Assembly: GCA_002698985.1 (NCBI GenBank)
Contig: PAAY01000058.1
Span: 1 to 39,560 of the forward strand
From: Saprospirales bacterium
Lineage (GTDB): Bacteria; Bacteroidota; Bacteroidia; Chitinophagales; Saprospiraceae
Reading direction: 5' to 3'
Length of the DNA: 39,560 nt
This document shows, piece by piece, positions 5,612 to 19,528 of this stretch. The translations under genes were made by a program, and so were the position numbers. The notes under the pieces were generated by a model. It was given only the letters and a program-made list of their open reading frames with translations. It did not search any database and was not told the DNA's origin. Position 1 is the stretch's first letter, and every line of letters starts with the position of its first letter.

Positions 5612-6025
5612 TTATTTGTTGGCTTTGGCTTTGAGGTCTTCTTCGATTCCTTTGAGCAAAAGGTTGAGCGCACCTGATGATACGGCAATTTCGACCAGGG
5701 AAATGCCAAGGGAGATGATCATCATCAGCAGGCTCAGGGCAAAGGTGGTGGTTGCTAAATGCTGCAACTCAAAATAGAGCATGAACATACAAACAAAACA
5801 CATCAAAAAACTGAGGATGGCAAAAAGCTGCATCATGCGGATGTAAAACACCCGGCGCTGGAGTGTGGCAATTTGTTGCAGCAGCACCTCTTCGTGCTGT
5901 TTTTGGTACTGTGAGTGCAGGTTACGGATCAGGCTGGCGATGGCCAGGAATTTATTGGTGTAGGCCAGTATGAGCAGGGAGATGGCCGGGAACAACAGTG
6001 CCGGGGTGGTGAAGTTGATTTGCAT
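5612..6025 (-). CDS. DUF2721-like membrane protein
   Basis: 137 aa. The N-terminal TPALLFPAISLLILAYTNKF is the characteristic opening of DUF2721 proteins, followed by FLAIASLIRNLHSQYQ, a charged cytosolic helix (40-60) and two more strongly hydrophobic segments (about 65-85 and 90-115). Three membrane helices are therefore likely, with a lysine-rich C-terminal tail. The biochemical role of the family is unknown. It is the first gene of a probable two-gene unit with the PQQ-type dehydrogenase, and it has a TACCTTTG box about 20 bp before its ATG. Confidence 0.75.
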   Translation of the reverse strand: MQINFTTPALLFPAISLLILAYTNKFLAIASLIRNLHSQYQKQHEEVLLQQIATLQRRVFYIRMMQLFAILSFLMCFVCMFMLYFELQHLATTTFALSLLMMIISLGISLVEIAVSSGALNLLLKGIEEDLKAKANK

Positions 6026-6199: not shown

Positions 6200-8377
6200 A
6201 TGAGCCTCCGCACCATTCTGAAATTTTCTTTCCTGATTTTGTTTGCGTCGCAAACCCTGCTTGCCTTTTCGCAGGGCAGGGGAGGGGGCTTTGGCAGCAA
6301 CTTCGGCAGTGCGCTTTCCGGTGGAAGTGGCGGTGGCAGCCGGCTGGGACTGGTCACTTATGACACTTCCGAAATTCACTATTTCTACGCCAACGATCCC
6401 AACCTGATCTATCCCTTCAGCGACAGCCTGCTGGATGATTTCGAGGTGTACGACCCCGCACAGCAGCAGGAATTTCACCATGCCCACCTGGGCAACCTGG
6501 GCTCGGCGCACCGCCCACTGTTTTTCGGGCCGGCGCTGCGGCGGGGCTTCGACGTGGGGCTGCACCAGTTCGATCTTTACGAAGTGAATACCGCCGACAT
6601 CCGCTACTACCGAATCACCCAGGCTTATACCCAGGCGGCCTACTCCCAGGGCCCCCTTCAGACGGATGCCCAGATGCTTGTGCGCTTCAGCCGGAATTTT
6701 TCCCGCACCATGAACTTCAGCATCGAGCACCGCCGCATCAACAACGGCGGCTCTTACGATTACCAGCGGGCTACCAACTCCTCGGTGGCTGCCGGGCTGT
6801 GGTACCACGAACCCTACGGCCGCTACGACAGCTTTCTCAGTCTGACCACCAACTCCCATTTTCAGGAGGAAAACGGCGGCGCCGCCGAAAGCCTCACCGA
6901 TACCATCATAGAGCCTTTCAAGGTCAAAATCAACCGGCAGACGCCCTTCACCCGGCATGCACATACGGAGCTGGCTTACACACAGTATTTCTACCTGAAC
7001 CGCCTGACGCCGGAGCAGAAAGCGCTGATCAAAAAACAAAAGGAACAGGAAAAGCGCCTCCGGCAGGAACAACTCCGCAATCCGCAGCCCGACAGCCTGC
7101 GGCAGCAAAACCGCCCGGCCCGGCCCCAGAGTGGAAGGCCACCGCTGCAGCAGGGGCGCCCCCTGCAACAAAAGCCGCCCGGTGTGCAAAACCAGCCCAA
7201 TGCCCCCGGCAGGGATTCCGGGCAGGTGCAGCAGCCGCTGCCCGTCATCGTCAAACCACCCGTTGCGAAGCGAGTGTTCAATTTTTACCACCAATTAAGC
7301 TGGAAGAGCAGTACGTACAAGTTTGCGGAAACGGATGCCGACAGCACCTTCTACGGCGACCTGGCCGTGGATGACCGGGGCCTCAGGCACTACCTGGAAG
7401 TGCGGCGCCTGCAAAACGATTTCTCTCTGCAAACTTTCAAACTGCGGGAGTCCAAAGGCCAAATCGTGCCGGCTGACCGCCTGGAAGTGGGGCTGCTGCA
7501 TGCGCTCTACCTCATCGACCAGGAACCCCTCAGTCGCACAATTCGCAACGACCTGTTCCTGACGGGCAAGCTGCAACTTTCCCCCAGCGACCGCATGGAG
7601 CTCCAGGCTTACGGGCACCTGGGTATCGGCGCCGATGCGGGCGACTACCGCCTGTCCGGCAACCTGCTCATCAACCTCAACAAATTGGGGCAACTGCAAC
7701 TGGAGGTCGTCAATCAGTTGTATTCTCCTTCGCTGCTGGCGCAGCAATACTTTCTTTCCAATCAGCAAATCTGGAAAAACGATTTCGGGCGCACTTTTGA
7801 AACCTCATTTTCCGGGACCTACGCAGTGCCTGTTCTGAAGGCTTCGGCCACCCTGCGTTACCACCTGGCCGATGGCTACATTTATTACGACGAAAACGCA
7901 AGACCTGCCCAGTCGGGCACCTTCAGCGTCTGGCAACTGGTGTTCAGAAAGGACTTCTCGCTCGGTCCACTGCACAACGAAAACTGGGTCGGTTTGCAAC
8001 GAACGGCGACGGAAGCTTTTGCCGGGCCGGAGTTGTACAGTCATCACAGCCTGTTTCTGGAAGGCAAAATCTTCAAAAAAGTAATGCTGGCCCGCTTCGG
8101 CCTCAGGGGGCGCTTCATCTCCTCTTACAACGCTCCGGCCTGGTCGCCTGCCATCGGCCAGTTTTTGGTGCAGCAAGCGCGCTCGTTGCCTTTCACTCCC
8201 CTGGTGGATGTATTTGCCAGTTTCAAAGTGAAAACCTTCCGCTTCTTCCTCAGAATCGACAACGTGCTCAGCCGGCCGCTCAACACCCACTTTTTCCAAA
8301 CGCTGGATTACCCCCTGCCCTATGGCTACAACAACGGCGGGGTGCGCTTCGGAATCAACTGGCGCCTGGTCGATTGA
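6200..8377 (+). CDS. Putative outer-membrane porin (Porin_10-like) with a Gln/Pro/Arg-rich insert
   Basis: 725 aa from the ATG at 6200. An in-frame TTG three codons earlier is less likely. The signal peptide MSLRTILKFSFLILFASQTL is followed by a Gly/Ser-rich stretch (27-50). Then DTSEIHYFYANDP and LGNLGSAHRPLFF match the start of the Bacteroidota 'putative porin' family (Porin_10), and long runs of beta strands continue to the C-terminus (final GGVRFGINWRLVD). Between about 269 and 357 lies a low-complexity segment (KKQKEQEKRLRQEQ, then many Q/P/R residues), which is unusual inside a barrel and probably forms a long loop or plug-like excursion. The substrate is unknown. It is convergent with the large surface-protein gene at 9842, and repeats fill the gap between them. 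Confidence 0.8.
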   Translation: MSLRTILKFSFLILFASQTLLAFSQGRGGGFGSNFGSALSGGSGGGSRLGLVTYDTSEIHYFYANDPNLIYPFSDSLLDDFEVYDPAQQQEFHHAHLGNLGSAHRPLFFGPALRRGFDVGLHQFDLYEVNTADIRYYRITQAYTQAAYSQGPLQTDAQMLVRFSRNFSRTMNFSIEHRRINNGGSYDYQRATNSSVAAGLWYHEPYGRYDSFLSLTTNSHFQEENGGAAESLTDTIIEPFKVKINRQTPFTRHAHTELAYTQYFYLNRLTPEQKALIKKQKEQEKRLRQEQLRNPQPDSLRQQNRPARPQSGRPPLQQGRPLQQKPPGVQNQPNAPGRDSGQVQQPLPVIVKPPVAKRVFNFYHQLSWKSSTYKFAETDADSTFYGDLAVDDRGLRHYLEVRRLQNDFSLQTFKLRESKGQIVPADRLEVGLLHALYLIDQEPLSRTIRNDLFLTGKLQLSPSDRMELQAYGHLGIGADAGDYRLSGNLLINLNKLGQLQLEVVNQLYSPSLLAQQYFLSNQQIWKNDFGRTFETSFSGTYAVPVLKASATLRYHLADGYIYYDENARPAQSGTFSVWQLVFRKDFSLGPLHNENWVGLQRTATEAFAGPELYSHHSLFLEGKIFKKVMLARFGLRGRFISSYNAPAWSPAIGQFLVQQARSLPFTPLVDVFASFKVKTFRFFLRIDNVLSRPLNTHFFQTLDYPLPYGYNNGGVRFGINWRLVD

Positions 8378-8477
8378 AAGCCCCCATGGCACTGCCCGCA
8401 TCCCGGCAATAACCTTGCGGCACCAGCCCCATCAAATGCGGGGGCACGGGAAAAGTGTTTATGAGGGTTTGAGGGTT

Positions 8478-8667
8478 TAGAGTTTGAGCGTGTTGTAGGG
8501 GTTTGGCTTGTCCAAACCCTACCCGCCCGGAAAGTGCTGCGGTAATTTGGAAGTTGCTGCCTCGCTTTGACAGGAAGTGTAGAGTTTGAGCGTGTTGTAG
8601 GGGTTTGGCTTGTCCAAACCCTACCCGTCCGGAAAGTGCTGCGGTAAACTGGAAGTTGCTGCCTCGC
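8478..8667. repeat. 102-bp tandem duplication with internal palindrome
   Basis: Copy 1 (8478-8565) and copy 2 (8580-8667) are nearly identical over 88 bp. Each contains AGGGTTTGG-CTTGT-CCAAACCCT, a perfect 9-bp stem. A 14-bp linker that is not repeated separates them. Confidence 0.85.
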
Positions 8668-9703
8668 ATCTGCGCCAGTTTTCGGTGGTGGCTGGTTGCT
8701 TCACATGCTCTCCGTGTTCACCCCGTGTCCTCCGTGTCCTCCGTGGTTATTTTGTTCCTCCCTTCGGTAAATAGAAGCACTGCCGGTGGCGATTGGAAAC
8801 GGAATTGGCCAGATGCTCCAAGGCGCAGAGCGCCGTTCCCCTTGGTAGCTCAGTAGCCAAACAGGAATTTGCGGCGCATAGCAAGGTTAACAACAACCTA
8901 AAGGTCGTTGTTACTGCACAGCCTAAAGGCTATGCTACAGTAGCGCAGCCTTCAGGCTGCGACAGTGGGGACGACCTTCAGGTTGTCCTCCAAAAACCGC
9001 AGAGGGCGACAGCCCGACAAAAACCCAAAGCGGCGACAGCCGCAAAAACCGGGAAGGCCGAAGGCCGACAAAAACCGGGGCCGAAGGCCCAAAAACCTTG
9101 CGGCGACAGCCGCATCAACCGGCCGAAGGCCATTTCACCACGGGGGACACGGAGGGCACGGAGATGACACGGAGAACATTTCTGCTAAACCCTGAAAATC
9201 AGGTTGCCCGAAGGGCGACCAAAACTGACCAAAGGCCCAAAAACAGCGGAGGCCGAAGGCCGACAAAAACCCAAGCGGCGACAGCCGCAAAAACCGGGAA
9301 GGGCGACAGCCCGACAAAAACCTTGCGGCGACAACCGCATCAACCCCGTGGATATTTTTTCTTATTCCCTTCGGTAAACGGCACCACTGCCTGTGGCGAT
9401 TGGAAACAGCTTTGGCCAGATGCTCCAAGGCGCAGAGCGCCGCACCCCTTGGTAGCTCAGTGGCCAAATTGGAATTTGCTGCCTCGCATCTGAGCCAGTT
9501 TTCGGCAGTGGCCAATTGCTTCACATGCTCTCTGTGTTCACCCCGTGTCCTCCGTGTTCCCCGTGGTTATTTTTTTTTATTCCCTTCTGTAAATGCTACC
9601 ACTGCCTGTGGCGATTGGAAACGGAATTGGCCAGATGCTCCAAGGCGCAGAGCGCCGTTCCTCTTGGTAGCTCAGTGGCCAAACAGAAAGTTGCGGCGCA
9701 TAG
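8652..9703 (+). repeat. Long repeat unit (~220 bp) in three diverged copies
   Basis: The unit runs from GCCTCGCATCTG through GTGTTCACCCCGTGTCCTCC, CCCTTCGGTAAA and GGCGATTGGAAAC to CCAAGGCGCAGAGCGCC and GCTCAGTGGCCAAA. Copies are at about 8652-8880, 9341-9480 (5' truncated) and 9470-9703. The GGCGC-AGA-GCGCC core is a perfect hairpin in all three. The copies differ by point changes and short indels, so this looks like an old multiplied element. Confidence 0.8.
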
Positions 9704-9841
9704 CGACGCCCCTCTTGAATAAAGCGCCTGACCAAAGGCCGACCAAAAACCGCGGAGGCCGAAGGCCGACAAAAACCCAAAGCGGCGCAGCCGCAAAAAC
9801 CGGGAAGGCCGAAGGCCGACAAAAACCGGCCGCAGGCCATG
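8889..9841 (-). repeat. Hairpin / T5 module array downstream of surface protein 1
   Basis: Read on the minus strand from the stop codon of the 9842 gene, the DNA is a run of GC-rich palindromes (GGCCTGCGGCC, GGCCTTCGGCC, GCGGCTGCGCCGC, GGGCTGTCGCCC). Most are followed within 2-8 nt by GGTTTTTG. I count roughly 14 modules by eye, in two blocks (9722-9841 and 8990-9340) separated by the long repeat. Module length is about 24-28 bp but variable, which excludes a CRISPR array. Confidence 0.8.
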
Positions 9842-12800
9842 TCACCAGCGGCTCCATTTCAGGCCTTGCAGCACTTCTCCTGTTTCGCTGCGCAATACCA
9901 GCCAGTAGGTGCCGGGGGGCAGGCTTTCCTTCGGCAAATCGATTTCTTCGCTGCGCAATACCTCTTGCTGCCACAGGAGGCGGCCGGCACCGTCGTGCAG
10001 GCTGAGGCGCAGACGCAGGGGCCAGGGGCCTCGCAGGTGCAGCACCGCGCCGGCACTGCCCGAGGGATTCGGCACGATCAGCGCTTGCAAACTGGCAGCG
10101 GCCGGATTCCGCGTGGCCGTCAGCAACACTTCGAAGGTGAAGGTGTCGGTGCAGCCCAGGGCGTCGGTCACCGTCAGGGTGTACTCGCCGGCGGACAGGC
10201 TGTCAACGCTGGCGGTGGTGGGGCCGTGGCTCCACTGGTAGCTGTACGGCGGCGTGCCGCCGAAGGTCAGTTGCACCTCCACGGCGCCGTTGGGCTGGTT
10301 GGGATGGGTGACCGGTTTTACTTCGTATAGCAACTCAATGGGCGGGTCTTCGCTCACCACCTGGCTGGCCGTCTGGCTGCAGCCGTTGGCGTCGGTCAGC
10401 GTCACTTTGTAGCTGCCCTTGCCGGCCATGATGCTGCTGTCCTGGCTGCCGGTGTTCCACTGGTAAGTGTACGGTGGCGTGCCGCCCCCGGCTTGCGCAG
10501 CAAGGGCCGTGGAATCGCCCGGGCACACCACTGTTGCGCCAGCGATGGAAAGACTGAGCGCCGGCGCCGTGTCCACGTACACGCTGGCCGTGTCCTGGCA
10601 GCCTTTGATGTCGGTTACCGTCACGCTGTACCAGCCGGGGGCCAGGTTGCTGATGGTCTGGAAGCTGCTGCTGTTGCTCCAAAAGTAGCTGTACGGCTTG
10701 GTGCCGCCCGTGGCCGTGGCCGTGGCGCTGCCGGTGTTGCTGCCGGCACAGCTCGTGCCCGTGGCCGTGGCGCTGGCCACCAGGCTGTCGGGGGCCGGCA
10801 GGAAGAAGCTCAGCTCGTCGGTGCAGCCCAGGGCGTCGGTCACCGTCACGCTGTACTGACCGCCGGCCAGGTCGGTGCGCAGGCTGTCGGTGCGGCCGTC
10901 GTTCCAGAGCCAGGTGTAGGGCCCGGTGCCGTCTTGCGGGCTGATGGCTGCCACGCCGTCGCCGCTGTCGTGGCAACTGATGGGCTGGATGCTGATGCCG
11001 AGCGTCAGGTGGCCGGAGCTGCCGATTTCCACGCTGTCGGTGAGGGTGCAGCCCTGGGCGTCGGTCAGGGTGACGCTGTACACGCCGGCGGCCAGGCCGG
11101 TGGCCGTGGCGCTGGTGTCGCCGCTGCTCCACAGGTAGGTGTAGGGGCCGGTGTTGCCCAGCGCACTGATGGTGGCTGTGCCGCCGCTGCCGGGGCAGAG
11201 CACGTCGGTGCTGCTCAGGGTGGCCTCCAGTGGAGGGGCATCGGGCAGGGTGATTTGCAGGGTGTCGCTGTCCATGCGCCCGTCGGTGATGACGAGGGTG
11301 TGCGTGCCGGCCGGCAGCGGCAGTTGGATGCGACTGGTATCGCTTATTGTGGTGTCGGTGCCGTTGGCGATGAAGAAGGGCGGGCAGCCCGTGTCGAGCT
11401 CCAGCCAAACCTTGCCGGGACTGCCCTGGCAGGGCACCGCTTCGATGCTGTCGGTGTGGATGCTGAAGGCGGGGCTTTCGTAGGCGCCCATGTCCACCAC
11501 CCCGCCCCGAATGCGGGGCATGCCGGCAAGGTCGGTCATAAGCCCCAGCGAGTCGATGATGCTGTTGTCCCCGGCATCACGGGCCGGAGAGCAGGTGTGC
11601 AGCCGGAAATCACCGCCAGCGGTGTCGAGGAACATGGGATCGACATTGAAGAGGGTGTTGGGACCGCAGGTGATGGGGCCACTGGCAATGGAAGCGCAGT
11701 CGGAGACGTCTATTAATGAGTTGGAAAAAGCAACACCGATACTATCCGCCAGATTTAATATGATTTGATTGGTATCGGAACCAAAATTGTTCCCCCACAA
11801 TATGCAATTGATAAAATAAATTTCATCCTCCAGAAAGTTGCTATTTTCACTGTATAAAATACTACCCAAAGGGCTTTCATTCTTTGTGAAAGTACAATTT
11901 GTGATACGCCACGTGTTCTGTGGGAAATCCGAATAAAACACCCCCCCTCTACCATCGGAATAATTGCCGTCGAACAAACAATTGTTTACTAGTACACCCT
12001 TTCCATCCTTATCATAAAATACTCCTCCTTCTCCTTCTGTATAATTACCAACAAATGAACAATCACTTATCTTTAAAACACCTCTATTATAAAAACAACC
12101 TCCTCTATTACTAGATGAGTTCGAAATAAATTTGCATTTCGTAAATTCTCCATAAAAATTAGTCTCAGCAAATAGTACTCCACCTCCTATCAAATTATTG
12201 CTTAAAGACTCATCAATGTTGTTTTCAAAATAGCAATTTTCCACTTTTAAAGTTCTCATCCCATTAAAACACGCCCCTCCTTCAAACTGAGCAGTATTGG
12301 CAATGAACTGGCAATTGGTCACCACTACATCCTCATCAGTAAACCCATTTAGACATCCATCGTTAATTTGAAAAACACAGCTATCAACTGTAAGTTTACT
12401 ACCCGCAACAATCGCAACACATAAGCCGTTTAAGAAAAAACTTGAATTTGATATTTGTACTGAATCTCCCGCTACAACAATCGCTATTTTGCTGTTAGAT
12501 TCAAAATGACAACTATCAATAGTCAGGCTGAATTTAGATGGCGGAAACCAAAAATTATAAACACCAATCGCACCTATATCAAGTTCTACTTCATTATTTT
12601 TAAAATTACATCTTTTTACATATATCTGTGAAACAGGATCATTTCTCTCGTGAAAAATTCCTCCACCTTCATCCAAACTATAATTAGATATAAATTGGCA
12701 GTCACGAAAAAAAAGGTTCCGGGAACCATAATCACTGATATAACAAAAACCGCCACCCCGAATTGATGTATTGTTTTTTAAAAATGAGCAGTTTACAATA

Positions 12801-13525
12801 AGCATATCGTGATTCATACTGCTGCCGGATTTATAAACCCCGCCCCCCGATCTTGCGTAATTTTCTTCGAAAATACAGCCCATCAATAGTGGAGTGGCAG
12901 CTCCGCTGGAGGTGCTTTGCATAAACAATCCACCCCCATTGCTTATGGCGTTATTCCTGATAAACTTACAATTGATAATAACGGGCCGGGCATCTTCCAT
13001 CTGGGAAGAACCCTTCAGATACAACCCTCCCCCGCTCTTGGTCCTGTCGGTGGACGGAATAAATGTCGAAGGATTATCCGCATTGCCTCCGGTGATGATG
13101 AACCCATCCAACACGGTGGTTGAATCCACATATTCGCAATAAACCACTGTGTAGCTGTTGTCCGTGCTGTCGTCCGGCACCCCAATGTCGCCGCTCAGAA
13201 TGGTTGCATTCAGCTCCCAATCCCTTTGATCCAAAGCGGTTTCCGTACCCGCAAATCCACCGTACAGCTTCACCCCGTTCTTTAAAATAAACGACACATA
13301 CCGGCTGGTGCCGGTCGTGGGATGATACGTGCCCGACGCCACCCATATACTGTCGCCATATTCCGACAACAACAATGCACTTTGCAACAGGGGGTACGCA
13401 TCCTGCCACGAACTGCCATCCTGTGCTCCACCTGCAACATTGGCATTGACGTAAATGATTTTGGCCTCCAGGTTTTTTGAAGCCCAAAAAAAGAATATCA
13501 TTAAAAAAGGAAAAAATGTCTTCAT
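9842..13525 (-). CDS. Giant T9SS surface protein 1: Pmp-like beta-helix, SprB repeats, sorting domain
   Basis: 1227 aa. A signal peptide (MKTFFPFLMIFFFWASKNLEA) is followed by IYVNANVAGGAQDGSSW and VASGTYHPT, the typical opening of Bacteroidota parallel beta-helix proteins. About eight repeats of the form FxxN...GG(G/V/A/C)(F/V/I)Y lie between about 190 and 580, resembling chlamydial polymorphic membrane protein repeats. A DxGAYE ending (about 645-682) matches the choice-of-anchor Q motif. Five SprB-like repeats follow (about 690-1145; GGTPPYTYQWNTG, GxYxVTVTDAxGC). The last 80 residues (IVPNPSGSAG, HDGAGRLLWQ, PGTYWLVL) are a T9SS sorting domain. It is predicted to be secreted and attached to the cell surface, probably as an adhesin. 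The beta-helix DNA is AT-rich while the SprB/sorting DNA is very GC-rich. The stop codon abuts the hairpin array. Confidence 0.9.
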   Translation of the reverse strand: MKTFFPFLMIFFFWASKNLEAKIIYVNANVAGGAQDGSSWQDAYPLLQSALLLSEYGDSIWVASGTYHPTTGTSRYVSFILKNGVKLYGGFAGTETALDQRDWELNATILSGDIGVPDDSTDNSYTVVYCEYVDSTTVLDGFIITGGNADNPSTFIPSTDRTKSGGGLYLKGSSQMEDARPVIINCKFIRNNAISNGGGLFMQSTSSGAATPLLMGCIFEENYARSGGGVYKSGSSMNHDMLIVNCSFLKNNTSIRGGGFCYISDYGSRNLFFRDCQFISNYSLDEGGGIFHERNDPVSQIYVKRCNFKNNEVELDIGAIGVYNFWFPPSKFSLTIDSCHFESNSKIAIVVAGDSVQISNSSFFLNGLCVAIVAGSKLTVDSCVFQINDGCLNGFTDEDVVVTNCQFIANTAQFEGGACFNGMRTLKVENCYFENNIDESLSNNLIGGGVLFAETNFYGEFTKCKFISNSSSNRGGCFYNRGVLKISDCSFVGNYTEGEGGVFYDKDGKGVLVNNCLFDGNYSDGRGGVFYSDFPQNTWRITNCTFTKNESPLGSILYSENSNFLEDEIYFINCILWGNNFGSDTNQIILNLADSIGVAFSNSLIDVSDCASIASGPITCGPNTLFNVDPMFLDTAGGDFRLHTCSPARDAGDNSIIDSLGLMTDLAGMPRIRGGVVDMGAYESPAFSIHTDSIEAVPCQGSPGKVWLELDTGCPPFFIANGTDTTISDTSRIQLPLPAGTHTLVITDGRMDSDTLQITLPDAPPLEATLSSTDVLCPGSGGTATISALGNTGPYTYLWSSGDTSATATGLAAGVYSVTLTDAQGCTLTDSVEIGSSGHLTLGISIQPISCHDSGDGVAAISPQDGTGPYTWLWNDGRTDSLRTDLAGGQYSVTVTDALGCTDELSFFLPAPDSLVASATATGTSCAGSNTGSATATATGGTKPYSYFWSNSSSFQTISNLAPGWYSVTVTDIKGCQDTASVYVDTAPALSLSIAGATVVCPGDSTALAAQAGGGTPPYTYQWNTGSQDSSIMAGKGSYKVTLTDANGCSQTASQVVSEDPPIELLYEVKPVTHPNQPNGAVEVQLTFGGTPPYSYQWSHGPTTASVDSLSAGEYTLTVTDALGCTDTFTFEVLLTATRNPAAASLQALIVPNPSGSAGAVLHLRGPWPLRLRLSLHDGAGRLLWQQEVLRSEEIDLPKESLPPGTYWLVLRSETGEVLQGLKWSRW

Positions 13526-13601
13526 GGGATGCGGGTTTTAACCGAAAATTGTAGAAATGTTTTTTTTGGAGTAATTGGAATATACTCAAAACGAATTGAT
13601 A

Positions 13602-13635
13602 CAATTGCCAGACAGGGTTTCCTGTCCGGCAATTG
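13602..13635 (-). terminator. Hairpin downstream of surface protein 2
   Basis: CAATTGCC-A-GACAGG, loop GTTT, CCTGTC-C-GGCAATTG: a 14-bp stem with one A/C mismatch, beginning 13 bp past the stop of the 13648 gene. The minus strand then reads TATCAATTCGTTTTG, a weak T-tract. It lies between the two surface-protein genes and probably ends or stabilises the upstream transcript. Confidence 0.6.
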
Positions 13636-13647
13636 CTTTTCAACCAA

Positions 13648-16600
13648 TTATTGTCGTTGCACGGTGCCTGAAAGCACTTTGTAGGCTGTGAACACGCGGT
13701 AGGTGTAAACACCCCGCCCCCAGCCGGCGGTGTCAAAAATTGCCGCTGCTTTGCGGTTGGTGGTTTCGCCTTGCCAGTTGTCAACGTGGCGTCCGGTGGC
13801 GTCGAATATGTCCACCCGTATCCATTCATCTGCCGGCAGCGTTACGCTCACGGTAAGTTTTTCTGAAAACGGATTGGGAATGGCCGTGGCTTGCGGCTCC
13901 ACCTGTGCGGCCTGCTCCGTTGCGATGGGTTCACTGCGGAAAGACATGCTGAGTGCATGTATCCGGCCGTCGTCTTCCCAGGCTGCATTGCCCAGCACGT
14001 CGTCGTTCAGCCGCAGCACCGCTGACCAATCATCAAACGCTCGCTTGATGCGAAAATGCAGCTTGAAGGCCTCCCGAGGCCGGCTGTACGGCAGCGGCCT
14101 GGCGTCTTGGGCATACCAAAGCACCCGCAATTTGCCGGCTTCTTTTTCCGTCGTTCCGAAATTGGCCGGGGTCATATAATCCAATGCGCCAGCCGCCACC
14201 GACTCCAGTTCAAGGTAGCCGGTGTCAAACCACAAACCGGCTTGCCAGGCCACCAGATCCGCCGGGCTCTCTACCCAAACCTGCACTTCGGCCTTTTCAC
14301 CTTCGGCAACAGGCCCGGCCACACCCTGCAACTGCACGGCGTCGGCAGCACGGCCCGCTGCTGCTCCGGCCAGCGGAGGCGCATTGCCGCAACCCGTGGT
14401 GGCCGACAGGTTCACATCGCCTACCTTGATGGCTATGAAATCCTGGTCCTGTGCCTCCGTCTGGTTGGTCATATCCACAGCAATGCACTCGGGAAAGTCT
14501 TCTGCCCAGGGATTCGCCGGATCGGGAAAAACATAGCTCGCAGGAATGAAGCGCCAGGAGGTTCTTCCTGGAATTTCTTGAATAATATTAAGTATTAATT
14601 GTTTAAAAAATATTAAGTCATAATTCGAAATTACTGGGGGACCAGGAAAATTTGCAGCATCCGCTGCGATGATTTTGTAGGGAGAGTCCAGGGGCTGTAT
14701 AGCAAGGATGTGTTTGTTAATCAGCACTAAGTCAAAAGTCGTCACTCCATTTATTGCATTAACATTTTTATGCGGGGCTATGCTGTAGGTGTTCTGACCG
14801 CAATTAAACACCTGTGAATAAAAACCACAGGGATTTATCGAAGTGCCAGTCAATTCTTCCGGACATCCCTGGGGTGTACAAATACAACCACTACTTCCAG
14901 ATTCCTGACCCGCCCTTATGGTGATCCCTTCAATTGGGTTAGTCGCACAACTATCATGCAGATCAAAATTGGCGTTAATGGCAATGAGAACGGGATCTCC
15001 ATTTTCTTTATAAATGCTTCCGCTGATGGTATTTACATCAGGGTCGCACGAAGAGCACAACGGGAAGGGATCGTTGCTCATGTCATAATACGGTACGCAG
15101 CTACCTTGTAATTCTATGTTGATATTGGTATTTTCTGTAAAGAAAATGCCATTTACACAGGATTCGTTTTGCCCCGCACCTGAATGTGAAAACTTCACAT
15201 CCAAAATATTAAATTGCCCGCCAATGGAATTGGTAGAACATATCCGGTACGTTATTATGTTGTTGTTCACACTAACGCACTCAGTCTGTCCTGGCGGCAA
15301 ACAGTTGTTACTGCCGTTAAAATTGCACAAAGAAAGTGGAAACGCTTCTAAGTTGATAGGACCATCCGCCATCACTTTAAATTCAATCACCATTTCATCC
15401 AACGAAACCGCATTCCCTGAAATATCCAACTTTAGAGAAAACCCTTGTTCGCACAGCTCTAATGGCTCATTTGTCCCCTGAAAGTCGTCAACTACTAAAC
15501 TTATGTTGTTGCAAAAATTGCATCCATTGCTAATAGGCAAGCTGGCGCTTAAAGCGGGGTCAATGTCAATTTTTGGAATACACAACCCTGAACTACCCTC
15601 AACATAAATAGCAGCCTGAAGCAATTCCACCACATCCAACTGACCATTAAGTCCGTCGAAAATAATCTGGAACGCATCTCCACTATTTAAAGTAATTCCG
15701 GTTCCATTGTATTCAAATTGGGTGGTGCAACCATAGCAAATTGGATAATTTCCACCCTGTTGACAAGGTATGATACCACAACTATAGTTTGATGAAAATC
15801 CGGGTGGGGTGTTAGTTGTACCTATCTGCAAATTGCCCGAAGTCTCTGTCAACAACTCAAACAGTAGGTTTTTAATCGTTACAGGAGCCCCTGTAGCCGT
15901 AGTTGCAAATATCTCAACTCCCGTCTGACAATCTGACAACTGGAGAGGGTTGATTTGACGAATGAGAAAAGTAACGTCATTTGTAGTACAAGGCAGCTCT
16001 CCCGGAAAGGTTACTGTCCCTTTGGCTGACGACACATCCAACAAACAACAACTACCACCGGCAATATTCATTCTGGCATATTCGACTGTTATATTGGATT
16101 CACCCAATAGATTTTCAAGACCATCCGGCTCATTGATTGAAAAGGCAAGTATCGTCAGTTCACCACCCGCCGGAATGGTATTTCCTCCCATAAAGGAATT
16201 TAACAAATAATAGTAGTCATCATCAGACTGAAATTCTATGGCAGGAGGATCATTGTTGTTTGTGTTCGGATCAAGGTAAATTCCACCGAGTGTACCATAT
16301 TCATCGGTTATTTTAATTTTGAAATCTACCTCATTCAAAGTAAGTTCAGTAGCGCTGTTGTTTTCTATCACCAAAAACAATTGCACTTCATCTCCCGGAT
16401 CCCCTGTTGGAATGCTATCTAAACGAACGCTGTAATCGGTAGAACAATCCTGCGCCACTTGTTTTGTTTCAGTGGTTACAAAAGAATTAATTACACATCG
16501 ATCCTCCCAATCACATCCGGCTATGCTGTTCATGTACCACAATGATGACTCTGGTGTTACTGTAATCTGTGCACCAGGTTCGCCAACTACTGCCAAAGAC

Positions 16601-17001
16601 AACAACAGGTTTTGACAATCTCCATAAGGTAAATTGTGACCGGGGGGAGTATCCTCACAGGAAGTAAACCAGATTATTTCTTTCGGACTTGTCAAAGTGA
16701 AATTTCCATATTGATAATTTGAGATGCATTTATCAATGTCAAAATAACCATCCCCGGAAATAGTAAATCGTATATTTGCTTGCTTTACCTCAAAAGAAGT
16801 GGGAGCGGGTTGCTGCTGGCCAACATACTCAAAATAGTAAGGAAATGTCATTCGAAGGCATTCATCATCATTATTCGGATCAGAAACTGTACATGCTATC
16901 AGCCATTGGTCAACAGAAGATGGGCACTGACTAAAAAGCTGTGAATCATCAAACGAAATCAATCCGATTAGTACAATAAAAAAGCGCATAAAGCTCCACA
17001 T
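13648..17001 (-). CDS. Giant T9SS surface protein 2: Cys-rich beta domains, dockerin-like and cohesin-like modules, sorting domain
   Basis: 1117 aa from the ATG at 17001. A second ATG at 16989 gives the neater signal peptide (MRFFIVLIGLISF...FSQC) and is equally possible. Residues 25-740 are Cys- and Asn-rich beta-type sequence that I do not recognise. At about 744-859 comes the Bacteroidota dockerin-like module: NGVTTFDLVLINKHILAIQ, then YKIIAADAANFPGPPVISN (the usual acidic calcium loop is lost in this second half), then SWRFIPASYVFPDP and DFIAIKVGDVN. A cohesin-like beta sandwich follows (about 904-1000), then a T9SS sorting domain (about 1040-1117; IPNPFSEKLTVSV, DATGRHVDNW, GVYTYRVFT). 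It is predicted to be exported and surface-bound. The first 2.4 kb of the gene are AT-rich and the rest GC-rich, with the change near 14560. An 8-bp tandem repeat lies 27 bp upstream. Confidence 0.85.
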   Translation of the reverse strand: MWSFMRFFIVLIGLISFDDSQLFSQCPSSVDQWLIACTVSDPNNDDECLRMTFPYYFEYVGQQQPAPTSFEVKQANIRFTISGDGYFDIDKCISNYQYGNFTLTSPKEIIWFTSCEDTPPGHNLPYGDCQNLLLSLAVVGEPGAQITVTPESSLWYMNSIAGCDWEDRCVINSFVTTETKQVAQDCSTDYSVRLDSIPTGDPGDEVQLFLVIENNSATELTLNEVDFKIKITDEYGTLGGIYLDPNTNNNDPPAIEFQSDDDYYYLLNSFMGGNTIPAGGELTILAFSINEPDGLENLLGESNITVEYARMNIAGGSCCLLDVSSAKGTVTFPGELPCTTNDVTFLIRQINPLQLSDCQTGVEIFATTATGAPVTIKNLLFELLTETSGNLQIGTTNTPPGFSSNYSCGIIPCQQGGNYPICYGCTTQFEYNGTGITLNSGDAFQIIFDGLNGQLDVVELLQAAIYVEGSSGLCIPKIDIDPALSASLPISNGCNFCNNISLVVDDFQGTNEPLELCEQGFSLKLDISGNAVSLDEMVIEFKVMADGPINLEAFPLSLCNFNGSNNCLPPGQTECVSVNNNIITYRICSTNSIGGQFNILDVKFSHSGAGQNESCVNGIFFTENTNINIELQGSCVPYYDMSNDPFPLCSSCDPDVNTISGSIYKENGDPVLIAINANFDLHDSCATNPIEGITIRAGQESGSSGCICTPQGCPEELTGTSINPCGFYSQVFNCGQNTYSIAPHKNVNAINGVTTFDLVLINKHILAIQPLDSPYKIIAADAANFPGPPVISNYDLIFFKQLILNIIQEIPGRTSWRFIPASYVFPDPANPWAEDFPECIAVDMTNQTEAQDQDFIAIKVGDVNLSATTGCGNAPPLAGAAAGRAADAVQLQGVAGPVAEGEKAEVQVWVESPADLVAWQAGLWFDTGYLELESVAAGALDYMTPANFGTTEKEAGKLRVLWYAQDARPLPYSRPREAFKLHFRIKRAFDDWSAVLRLNDDVLGNAAWEDDGRIHALSMSFRSEPIATEQAAQVEPQATAIPNPFSEKLTVSVTLPADEWIRVDIFDATGRHVDNWQGETTNRKAAAIFDTAGWGRGVYTYRVFTAYKVLSGTVQRQ

Positions 17002-17027
17002 CGGTATAACTTTACAAGCATTTTTTT

Positions 17028-17081
17028 GTGAGGTCGTGAGGTCGTGAGGTCGTGAGGTCGTGAGGTCGTGAGGTCGTGAGG
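17028..17081. repeat. Perfect octanucleotide tandem repeat (GTGAGGTC x 6.75)
   Basis: Six full copies of GTGAGGTC plus GTGAGG run without a mismatch, 27 bp upstream of the ATG of surface protein 2, followed by a run of seven T (17021-17027) on the plus strand. The unit length is not a multiple of three and the tract lies in the presumed promoter or leader. Such a tract can change length by slippage. Confidence 0.95.
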
Positions 17082-17324
17082 AAAATCGGTTTGAGAATAC
17101 ATAACAAAAAGTTTTAAAGGTTGAAAAATGTGTTTACATAATGCTCACAGGATATTTTCTGCATGCAGCAAAGAATTTTACTAAAGGGATAGATGCTAAA
17201 AAATCAAATAGTGTTTCAGGCGGGTGGAACGTTTGCAGGCTAAGGTAATTTGAAAGTTTCATACTTGCAAGGAAGGAGGGTAATTTTTTTGCCGAAGGAT
17301 GAGGAGGGTGTTTGATATGTCTTG

Positions 17325-18304
17325 GTAGCACAACGGGGGCACGGAGAATTCCTGTGAACCCCTAAGACCAGGTTGCCCGAAGGGCGAAACATGAGCGTTG
17401 TGGATTGTGAGTTATGAGTTGTGAGTTGCCCGAAGGCCGACCCATGTAAGTTGTGGGTTGTGAGTTATGAGTTGTGAGTTGGCCGAAGGCCGAACGAAAA
17501 CCCAAAAGGCCGAAGGCCATTCCACCACGGAGGACACGGGGGACACGGAGATGACACGGTGAAGAAGCCTGCAAAACCCCAACAACCTCGTTGGCCGAAG
17601 GCCCAAAAACTGCGGAGGCCGAAGCCCGACAAAAACCCAAAGCGGCGACAGCCGCAAAAACCGGAAAGGGCGAAGCCCGACAAAAACCCAAAGCGGCGCA
17701 GCCGCAAAAACCGGGAAGGGCGACAGCCCGACAAAAACCGGCCGAAGGCCATTTCACCACGGAGGGCACGGGGGACACGGAGATGACACGGAGAAGAAGC
17801 CTGCTAAACCCTGAAAATCAGGTTGCCCGAAGGGCGACCAAAAACCAAAGGCCGAAGGCCCAAAAACCGCGGAGGGCGACAGCCCGACAAAAACCTTGCG
17901 GCGCCAACCGCAAAAACCGGGAAGGGCGAAGCCCGACAAAAACCGCGGAGGGCGACAGCCCGACAAAAACCTTGCGGCGCCAGCCGCATCAACCGGCCGA
18001 AGGCCATTCCACCACGGAGGGCACGGGGCTACGGAGATGACACGGAGAACATTCCTGCTAAACCCTGAAAATCAGGTTGCCCGAAGGCCGACCCATGAGC
18101 GTTGTGGGTTGTGAGTTATGAGTTGTGAGTTGGCCGAAGGCCGAACGAAAACCCAAAAGGCCGAAGGCCGCAAAAACCGTGGAGGCCGAAGGCCGACAAA
18201 AACCCAAAGCGGCGACAGCCGCAAAAACCGGGAAGGGCGACAGCCCGGCAAAAACCGGCCGAAGGCCCAAAAACCCTTGCGGCGCCAGCCGCAACAAATG
18301 CGGC
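17325..18304 (-). repeat. Repeat cassette B: hairpin / T5 module array downstream of the aminotransferase
   Basis: Starting at the aminotransferase stop codon, the minus strand reads GCCGC-ATTTGTT-GCGGC and then about 17 GC hairpins, most followed by GGTTTTTG. These are the same modules as array A. Blocks of GGCCGAAGGCCATTYCACCAC plus an ACACGGAGATGACACGGAGA segment occur at 17508, 17740 and 17995 and also at 9121 in array A. A 69-bp block (17450-17518) is repeated identically at 18101-18169. No gene is supported. Between 17082 and 17324 there is plain AT-rich sequence with nothing recognisable. Confidence 0.85.
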
Positions 18305-19528
18305 TCAGGCCAAATCTTGCAAAGCCGCTACCAAGGCCTCAATCTCTTCTTCGGTGTTGTAATAATGCGGAGAAACCCGCAAGGCCCACTCCACGCCCTT
18401 TTCGTCGAAATCAATCAGGGCATTGTGGCGGCCCTGGGTGCTGAAGTTGATGTTGGCCTTCTTCAGATGGCCGATGAGGGTTTCCTTTTTCCAATTGGGG
18501 TTTGCTGCGGTGACGATGCCGCACAGTTCTGCGCCTTTGTCAAGCACGCGTACGCCGGGCAGGGCTGAGAGTTTTTGCCGGGTGAGGTCCGCCAGGGCTT
18601 TTACCCGGCGTTCGATGTTTGCCAGCCCCAGGTTCAGCGCATAGCGCATGGCGGCGGCGCTGCCCACCATCAGTTCATACGGCCTTTCAAAGTACTCAAA
18701 GCGGATGGCTGAGGGCGCCAGGCGGTATGCTTCAACGTCGGTCCACTGTGCGCCGTGCAGGTCGGGGAAGAAAGGTTCCAGGCCTTCCTTTAAAACCCGG
18801 TTGCTGGCGTACAGCAAGCCGGCGCCCCTTGGCCCCCGCATGAATTTGCGCATGGTGGCACTGAGGAAGTCGCATTTTATTTTGCTCACATCCAGCGGCA
18901 GTTGCCCTGCCGACTGGCAGGCATCCACGATGTACCAGATTTCTTTGGCCTGGCACAGCTCACCGATGGCCTCCACGGGCTGCACCAATCCGGAATTGGT
19001 AGGAACATGGGTGACGGACACCAGCTTTGGGTGGTGGCGGTCGATCAGCGTTTTCATGGACTGCACGTCCACGCCACCTTCCGGTGCTTTGGCGGCCCGC
19101 AAGACCTTGATGCCCATGCGCTTTTGCAAGGACAAAAAGGCGATGTGGTTGGAGACGTAGTCGTCGTCGGTGGTGAGCAGCACATCACCGGCTTTGAAAG
19201 GGATGGAAGACAGCGCCTTGTTGAAGGCGTTGGTGGCACTGCCGGCAAAAGCCATGTTGCGCTTGTGGCCGTTTACCAATTGCGCAGCGAGGAGGTAAAA
19301 CTCCCGCAACTCCTCCGCCCGGGCTTGCATGGTTTCATACCCACCCATCAGGTGCTCTTCCGCCAGGTAATTGGCCAAGGCTTCGCTCACGGGTTTCGGT
19401 GGCAGGCTGGCGCCAGCGTTGTTGAGGTGGATGACTTTCGAGGTTCCCGGGGTATCGGCCCGCAGGCCGGCAATGTCGTTGATGTCAGGCATGAGGCTGT
19501 GGTTTTGTTGGCACGCAAGGTCTGACAT
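18305..19528 (-). CDS. Class V aminotransferase-fold PLP enzyme (NifS/isopenicillin-epimerase-like)
   Basis: 407 aa from the ATG at 19528; the ATG at 19492 (MPDIND) is an alternative start. The features of the fold-type I class V family appear in order: HLNNAGASLPP near the N-terminus, NMAFAGSATNAFNKAL (PLP phosphate region), VSVTHVPTNSGLVQPV, WYIVDACQSAGQLPLDV (Asp that binds the pyridine nitrogen) and LSATMRKFMRGPRGAGLLY (Lys that forms the Schiff base). A cysteine desulfurase would normally have a conserved Cys in a C-terminal loop. The C-terminal region has LDKGAELCGIVTAA instead, so the reaction is uncertain: desulfurase, epimerase or lyase activity could all fit. It stands alone. The hairpin array begins at the stop codon, and a minus-strand terminator-like hairpin lies about 100 bp before the start. 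Confidence 0.85.
   Translation of the reverse strand: MSDLACQQNHSLMPDINDIAGLRADTPGTSKVIHLNNAGASLPPKPVSEALANYLAEEHLMGGYETMQARAEELREFYLLAAQLVNGHKRNMAFAGSATNAFNKALSSIPFKAGDVLLTTDDDYVSNHIAFLSLQKRMGIKVLRAAKAPEGGVDVQSMKTLIDRHHPKLVSVTHVPTNSGLVQPVEAIGELCQAKEIWYIVDACQSAGQLPLDVSKIKCDFLSATMRKFMRGPRGAGLLYASNRVLKEGLEPFFPDLHGAQWTDVEAYRLAPSAIRFEYFERPYELMVGSAAAMRYALNLGLANIERRVKALADLTRQKLSALPGVRVLDKGAELCGIVTAANPNWKKETLIGHLKKANINFSTQGRHNALIDFDEKGVEWALRVSPHYYNTEEEIEALVAALQDLA

Follow-up and report, generated by a model that had tools for sequence, protein, structure and literature searches.

Three unrelated genes of a Saprospirales bacterium (genome G000) are each followed by an array of short GC hairpins that alternate with a T5 element, and the arrays are probably a composite satellite of intergenic DNA, specific to this lineage, that slippage and template switching have enlarged and homogenised. 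Two of the arrays lie in the stretch analysed here, the 39,560 nucleotides of contig PAAY01000058.1 (assembly GCA_002698985.1; "the window"), and the third lies on another contig (C47). The arrays are more likely such a composite satellite than a device.

Hairpin and T5 modules are concentrated in three arrays

A module was counted where a perfect stem of 4-5 GC pairs with a loop of 3-4 nt was followed by GTTTTTG starting 0-8 nt after the hairpin. On the minus strand of array 1 (8889-9841), 12 of the 13 GTTTTTG stand right after a perfect GC hairpin; the plus strand has 0 GTTTTTG and 0 hairpin modules, and dinucleotide shuffles of the array (n = 300) gave a mean of 0.02 modules and a maximum of 1. 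A preliminary description of this locus had claimed GC hairpins each with T5 on the sense strand of a giant surface-protein gene, in a string beginning at its stop codon, and both points hold: the stop codon of the 9842 gene, which encodes a large protein with SprB repeats, ends 3 nt ahead of the first GGCC hairpin. The same description counted about 14 modules, which become 12 by the strict rule, and saw one continuous chain, which resolves into three hairpin groups split by a P-block and a CTCCGTG block and ending in a different palindrome (Table 1).

Group 1 runs GGCC-TGC-GGCC, GGCC-TTC-GGCC, CGGC-TGC-GCCG, GGCC-TTC-GGCC, with GTTTTTG after each. Long copies of the P-block occur in this genome only among the 60 searched, two others having a 37-39 nt match, and the CTCCGTG block is an inverted copy of a CACGGAG stretch within the P-block. 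The palindrome that closes the array has GCTACTGTAGC at its centre and partial copies on 10 other contigs of the genome, and it is outside the hairpin/T5 family. Its REP label refers to the dispersed copies only, because GTAG palindromes are not above control genome-wide; as a genome-wide class, GTAG-tagged palindromes were rejected with 20 in a 400-kb sample vs 25 for a GATG control. On the far side of array 1, positions 8478-8667 hold a 102-bp tandem repeat (1.9 copies, 96% matches).

Table 1 Features of the window that bear on the hairpin/T5 arrays
Feature	Position	Strand	Evidence
Third P-block copy, past the end of array 1	8640..8885	-	89% to 9466-9704, 87% to C47:3962-4202
Long palindromic REP-like repeat closing array 1	8890..8986	-	own-genome search; fold
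Array 1 hairpin group 3	8991..9114	-	module parse, terminator scan, Tandem Repeats Finder
CTCCGTG-type block between groups 2 and 3	9137..9179	-	inverted repeats
Array 1 hairpin group 2	9238..9339	-	module parse, Tandem Repeats Finder
P-block repeat, ~240 bp, between groups 1 and 2	9346..9704	-	full copy 9466-9704, partial copy 9346-9482
Array 1 hairpin group 1	9744..9839	-	sequence parse, strict module rule
Large protein with SprB repeats, gene upstream of array 1	9842..13525	-	ORF; PF13573 SprB E 5.4e-32
Array 2, same hairpin/T5 modules in three blocks	17481..18297	-	own-genome search; strict module rule
Class-V aminotransferase family gene, upstream of array 2	18305..19528	-	PF00266 E 9.8e-54
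Plain GAGGTTTTTG cluster without hairpins, convergent spacer, 8 nt after stop codon	31848..31879	-	linker search, Tandem Repeats Finder

Searching the genome with array 1 returned two more arrays, array 2 of the window and C47:3458-4196, giving three in total. Array 2 holds 15 of the window's 27 modules, all of which are on the minus strand. The first hairpin lies 3, 10 and 17 nt behind a stop codon in arrays 1, 2 and C47, respectively, with T5 on the sense strand in 3/3 cases, and the genes ahead show no relationship to one another, one encoding a SprB-repeat protein, one a class-V aminotransferase family protein and the third, on C47, being an ORF that we tentatively take to be glycerate kinase-like. 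Tandem Repeats Finder reports a period of 232 with 2.0 copies and 80% matches at 17508-17971 in array 2, and a macro-unit of ~230-250 bp, made up of hairpins, linkers and a CTCCGTG block, is repeated 2-3 times at each of the three spacers. Modules are concentrated in these three arrays of the genome: an unbiased 400-kb sample contains 0 modules at 177 GTTTTTG, and 25 of the 80 genomic matches to GGTTTTTGNSGS fall in the three arrays and 55 elsewhere (reversed control, 47).

Between array 2 and the start of the 13648-17001 ORF, positions 17028-17081 hold 6.8 copies of GTGAGGTC with 100% matches. Within 11500-17500, parts of the two large ORFs (9842-13525 and 13648-17001) have 36-45% GC, the rest of the window being mostly 50-60%, and these low-GC parts are perhaps of different origin.

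Stems stay complementary while loops vary

Parsing of the three arrays yielded 43 hairpins, of which 21 end 6 nt before GTTTTTG and 15 end 0-2 nt before GTTTTTG or a T-run. A recurrent order of slots leads from a GGCC hairpin and T5 through a TCGGSC hairpin with TTCCCGG, T5, a CGGC hairpin with CTTTGGG and T5 to a TCGGSC hairpin with TCCGCGG, T5, a GGCC hairpin and the CTCCGTG block; this order is roughly constant across blocks, with deviations in single blocks. Twenty-nine of 31 modules parse, and 28 of these 29 are complementary in their stems, which fall into three states (GGC/GCC 9, GGG/CCC 11, CGG/CCG 8).

The third stem pair of the TCGGSC slots switches between C-G and G-C together with its partner, and among 13 distinct rows this variable pair is GC in 8, CG in 4 and other in 1. 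Across 16 aligned TCGGSC modules (the same 13 distinct rows), 98.1% of cells pair. The preliminary description had suggested a search for stem-preserving changes; covariation is indeed present, with 3/500 shuffles reaching the score, but it is informative at one of four stem pairs, in an alignment built from related copies, and a slid control with partners moved by 3 columns scores 0.199 vs 0.205 for the real pairing (67.3% vs 98.1% paired cells).

The TCGGSC loops are variable (TTC, TGC, TGTC, TGGC, TGCC). A TTC or TGTC loop occurs in 21/23 parsed modules of arrays 1 and 2 and in 0/6 of C47, although the C47 array does hold GGCC-TTC-GGCC hairpins outside the parsed module list; local homogenisation would give such array-specific loops. 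GTAG or CGTC directly 5' of hairpins, and CTAC or GACG directly 3', were each found at 0/46.

The linker is a spacer repeat next to gene ends

The T5 element is part of a wider spacer repeat, GAGGTTTTTG, that is present in G000 and in its closest sampled relative, G003. The linker of the arrays is a short G/T-rich spacer repeat, (GA)GGTTTTTG, next to gene ends in both species. GAGGTTTTTG followed by GGTTTTTG within 30 nt occurs 22 times in G000 and 72 times in G003 (controls 1 and 6), with one match each in six other genomes of 60. Of the GGTTTTTG copies in the unbiased 400-kb sample, 24/51 are intergenic, intergenic sequence making up 20% of the sample; four unrelated control motifs range from 4/25 to 13/57. 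We rejected an enrichment specific to the linker, the reversed overlapping motif GTTTTTGG behaving alike (18/37 intergenic).

Orientation was counted with one row per spacer and strand in cluster regions picked from motif matches, 20 in G000 (from GGTTTTTGNSGS and linker searches) and those from all 43 hairpin-site matches in G003. Gene ends came from a simple ORF caller that did not report the ORF at 13648-17001 or the one upstream of the C47 array, and the count left out clusters at contig edges (3 in G000, 14 in G003) as well as a single cluster within a predicted gene (G003). Counted in this way, the T strand points outward from the nearer gene end in 28/32 spacers (G000 15/18, G003 13/14), at starts and stops alike. 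The outward orientation is clear for clusters of two or more only: unbiased samples that include single GGTTTTTG copies have no clear outward bias (10 vs 8 and 9 vs 4). In tandem spacers, T5 clusters are sense or antisense in 3 and 6 cases in G000 and in 3 and 9 in G003 (6 and 15 over both species).

Strand and position bias had been put forward in the preliminary description as checks. Position bias is borne out, in that clusters lie near gene ends and 3/3 G000 arrays start behind a stop codon. As for strand, 3/3 G000 arrays are sense, but neither the T5 clusters of either species nor the hairpin modules of G003 have a sense bias. With clusters pointing outward and lacking a sense preference, the T5 polarity therefore seems to belong to the geometry of the spacer and not to transcription.

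A related genome carries another hairpin on the same linker

G003 is the closest of 10 same-genus genomes compared by the C47 protein (77% vs <=50%), a comparison that three further same-genus genomes stand outside. Its genome has the same architecture with another hairpin, to which the strict rule (loop 3-4) is blind: GGTTTTTG with a CCCGAG hairpin occurs at 43 sites vs 0 for the control. In 13 tandem spacers these CCCGAG modules are sense in 5 and antisense in 8; another 13 places lie at the edges of contigs. The CCCGAG hairpin (19 nt) or a close variant of it, facing either way, stands beside GGTTTTTG and also within G/T-rich repeats such as CGGTTGTCGGTTGT and GTAGGTTGTAGGTTGG. Many hairpin/T5 repeats lie near the ends of G003 contigs L361, L362, L364, L365, L368, L370, L374, L377 and L378; the assembly therefore seems to be interrupted at such repeats, so that G003 may have more of them than were counted.

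The C47-gene locus is the one comparable orthologous spot between the two genomes. Behind the G003 orthologue lies a GTTGTTGAGATT-type tandem repeat instead, with no hairpin array in the ~500 nt up to the contig end. For the aminotransferase, G003 has no close orthologue (best 25%); seven other same-genus genomes have orthologues at 57-64%, and 0 GTTTTTG were found within 400 nt behind the four of these seven that are readable.

Further afield, array 2 matched 9 other genomes among 100, in two kinds of stretch only (at most five candidates per genome scored): a CTCACAACTCATAAC stretch in G002, G012, G044, G071, G080 and G086 and a CTCCGTG stretch in G009, G013 and G037. A search of a plasmid collection with array 2 gave no match. 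Scans for three spaced GGTTTTTG returned at least 118 stretches in the genome collection and 71 stretches in viruses. Among the matches listed, eight loci have inverted repeats in both gaps (L090, L119, L131, L139, L176, L213, L231, L245), and L090, L119 and L139 have GC-rich hairpins on inspection. L139 carries the hairpin of G003 and is probably the same genome. At L119:5737-5850 (JAITNO010000127.1, a Spirochaetaceae MAG), GC palindromes are each followed by GGTTTTTG right behind the stop codon of an ORF (5731-5733) on the same strand; that genome has 6 GCGGTTTTTGCGG vs 0 reversed, of which 3 are in the array, 1 is in a spacer and 2 are within ORFs. On the minus strand of L090 (~2337-2410, NZ_JAAHHT010000417.1, Okeania), two hairpins of the GCGAGCA-AGA-TGCTCGC type stand between spaced GGTTTTTG, a possible further case of such architecture in a cyanobacterium.

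Transcription, mobility and protein binding as alternatives

The arrays might instead be stacked weak intrinsic terminators or an mRNA 3'-end element, with hairpins that pause RNA polymerase, T5 that weakens the hybrid, a series that adds up and a protected 3' end. We regard this as unlikely, though it is the strongest of the alternatives. The placement of 3/3 G000 arrays behind a stop codon and on the sense strand would suit it, as would an excess of terminator-like matches over shuffles (11 vs 3.0 in array 1 and 9 vs 4.0 in array 2), 17/20 of them on the sense strand of the two window arrays under a scan rule looser than 0-2 nt. Array 2 opens with a hairpin whose 7-bp stem is followed by GGG and T5, and the similar spirochaete array behind a stop codon favours this explanation a little. 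Against it stand the 21/43 stems that end 6 nt ahead of GTTTTTG and the missing sense bias of linker clusters and G003 hairpin modules; moreover, the genome already has conventional hairpin and T-tract sites in 16/172 3' spacers vs 1 in shuffled spacers. Sense RNA of two hairpin groups does not exceed shuffles in stability (z -0.88 and 0.05), its predicted fold pairing modules with each other, whereas the opposite, A-rich strand of the array 2 group reaches z -3.01 as RNA (z -2.15 as DNA; sense DNA, z -0.95); A-rich DNA of the array 1 group has z -1.27. Local hairpins may form during transcription despite these unremarkable group folds. The whole 957 nt of the array 1 region give z -8.59 as sense RNA (20 shuffles), a value that is not informative on the modules because, on our reading of the fold, its long helices are formed by the P-block and the end palindrome. 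An Rfam search of the window gave 0 matches at gathering score, and a known RNA family was rejected, as 3 relaxed-threshold matches in 8370-9850 are far below gathering scores and at chance level.

Mobile palindromic mini-elements would explain the arrays through insertion at G/T-rich linkers by a transposase acting in trans, followed by tandem amplification. The CCCGAG hairpin of G003, found in both orientations in several G/T-rich repeats (GGTTTTTG, CGGTTGTCGGTTGT, GTAGGTTGTAGGTTGG), would fit such a history, and the cited part of PMC4478555 describes the GC clusters of yeast mitochondria as palindromes that are mobile and undergo merging and shuffling. We nevertheless hold it to be improbable, given that none of 46 hairpins bears a GTAG/CGTC tag, that the G000 400-kb sample has no singly dispersed modules and that the genome has one Y1_Tnp match (C58:22503-22703); four REP-core palindromes were absent from the 2.5-kb Y1_Tnp locus, in a search that left the array hairpins outside. 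Least probable, in our estimate, is that a protein or a translational regulator recognises the array as a row of binding sites, by analogy with what has been proposed for Beggiatoaceae TAACTGA direct repeats. Consistent cluster geometry, with the T strand outward at both starts and stops, might be read in this way, and the excerpted text of PMC4679880 describes 12/14 TAACTGA sets of the Bacteroidete F. litoralis as forward before starts and one as reverse behind a stop. Hairpins would be poor binding sites because their sequence varies; in addition, the unbiased GGTTTTTG samples are without clear bias, and strong linker enrichment is seen in 2/60 genomes only.

A composite satellite as the preferred explanation

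The preliminary description had offered three roles. Of these a fast-evolving repeat zone fits best, ahead of the stacked terminators and the mRNA protector, given a tandem macro-unit, array-specific loops and another repeat at the G003 site. What the data show directly is the anatomy of the arrays, their distribution among the genomes searched, their orientation and the differing repeat at one orthologous site; how the composite satellite that we prefer is copied and repaired is inferred. It would grow through slippage during replication and through unequal exchange between its numerous short stretches of homology, possibly assisted by fork stalling at the hairpins, and intrastrand template switching could rewrite one stem arm from the other, so that stems would be perfect and loops free. 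If the arrays affect transcription of the upstream gene at all, through weak, leaky attenuation, this would be incidental. In the portion of PMC8794818 cited here, template switching is described as able to make compensatory stem changes and to create and maintain stems.

Several observations weigh against the satellite. Each of the three arrays follows a stop codon and carries T5 on the sense strand, and the spirochaete MAG array is likewise placed, neither of which is required of a neutral satellite. Terminator-like matches exceed shuffles and are mostly sense, and the covariation comes from one of four pairs and related copies, with nearly the same score in the slid control. More tentatively, and with less than even confidence, we suggest a bacterial hairpin-linker satellite, in which palindromes would form or settle next to G/T-rich linkers at gene ends, while template switching during replication would spread them, swap them and keep them perfect, each species having its own hairpin on a common linker.

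Compensatory stem changes are commonly taken as a sign of selected RNA. Here, stems covary in DNA with unremarkable sense-RNA folds (two groups), in full arrays that were found in one species and are replaced at one orthologous site. If such stems are kept perfect by mutation alone, covariation says less about function than has been assumed, and the arrays are a place to measure this. Should the satellite reading be true, they would offer a natural setting for watching the birth and upkeep of hairpins without selection on RNA. Strings of hairpins plus T behind genes can also mimic terminator arrays.

Relation to known repeat systems

Among the papers listed on Saprospir intergenic repeats and palindromes and on Bacteroidetes palindromic repeats, none gave an account of such arrays; the combination of hairpin and T5 linker was not found among them, and its elements resemble known repeats. 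CRISPR was rejected, since three hairpins in variant forms fill the intervals between T5, where a CRISPR would have unique spacers. So was protein coding: in the last block of array 2, successive T5 are spaced by 27, 24, 26, 25 and 26, which leaves no constant reading frame. The ORF at 17362-17778 has no Pfam match.

In the three arrays, as in intrinsic (Rho-independent) terminators, a GC hairpin precedes a T-run when the sense strand of the gene ahead is read, but half of the stems stop 6 nt short of GTTTTTG, the T-run is mostly five and many modules stand in series. REP/BIME elements (GTAG and CGTC super-families) share with the arrays short spacer palindromes often near 3' ends, alternative complementary stem residues and, in some families, tandem reiteration, as far as the cited sections of PMC3733652 describe them. 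The arrays differ in that they have no GTAG/CGTC tag, occupy few loci and keep the T5 linker always on the same side; REP elements are also expected in high copy and dispersed, and we found three arrays by similarity and no modules in the 400-kb sample. TAACTGA sets, in the part of PMC4679880 that treats them, are likewise short direct repeats beside starts, a single set being reversed behind a stop, and they occur in scattered lineages, some Bacteroidetes among them; the arrays have a different unit, interleaved GC hairpins and a higher-order macro-unit. Palindromes that proliferate in spacers are known from yeast mitochondrial GC clusters, which diversify, merge and shuffle (PMC4478555, in part), and from the palindromic repeats of Volvox organelle DNA (PMC2670323, in part). 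Those palindromes, as these partial sources present them, are dispersed and organellar, whereas the repeats described here form tandem arrays with a fixed linker in a bacterium.
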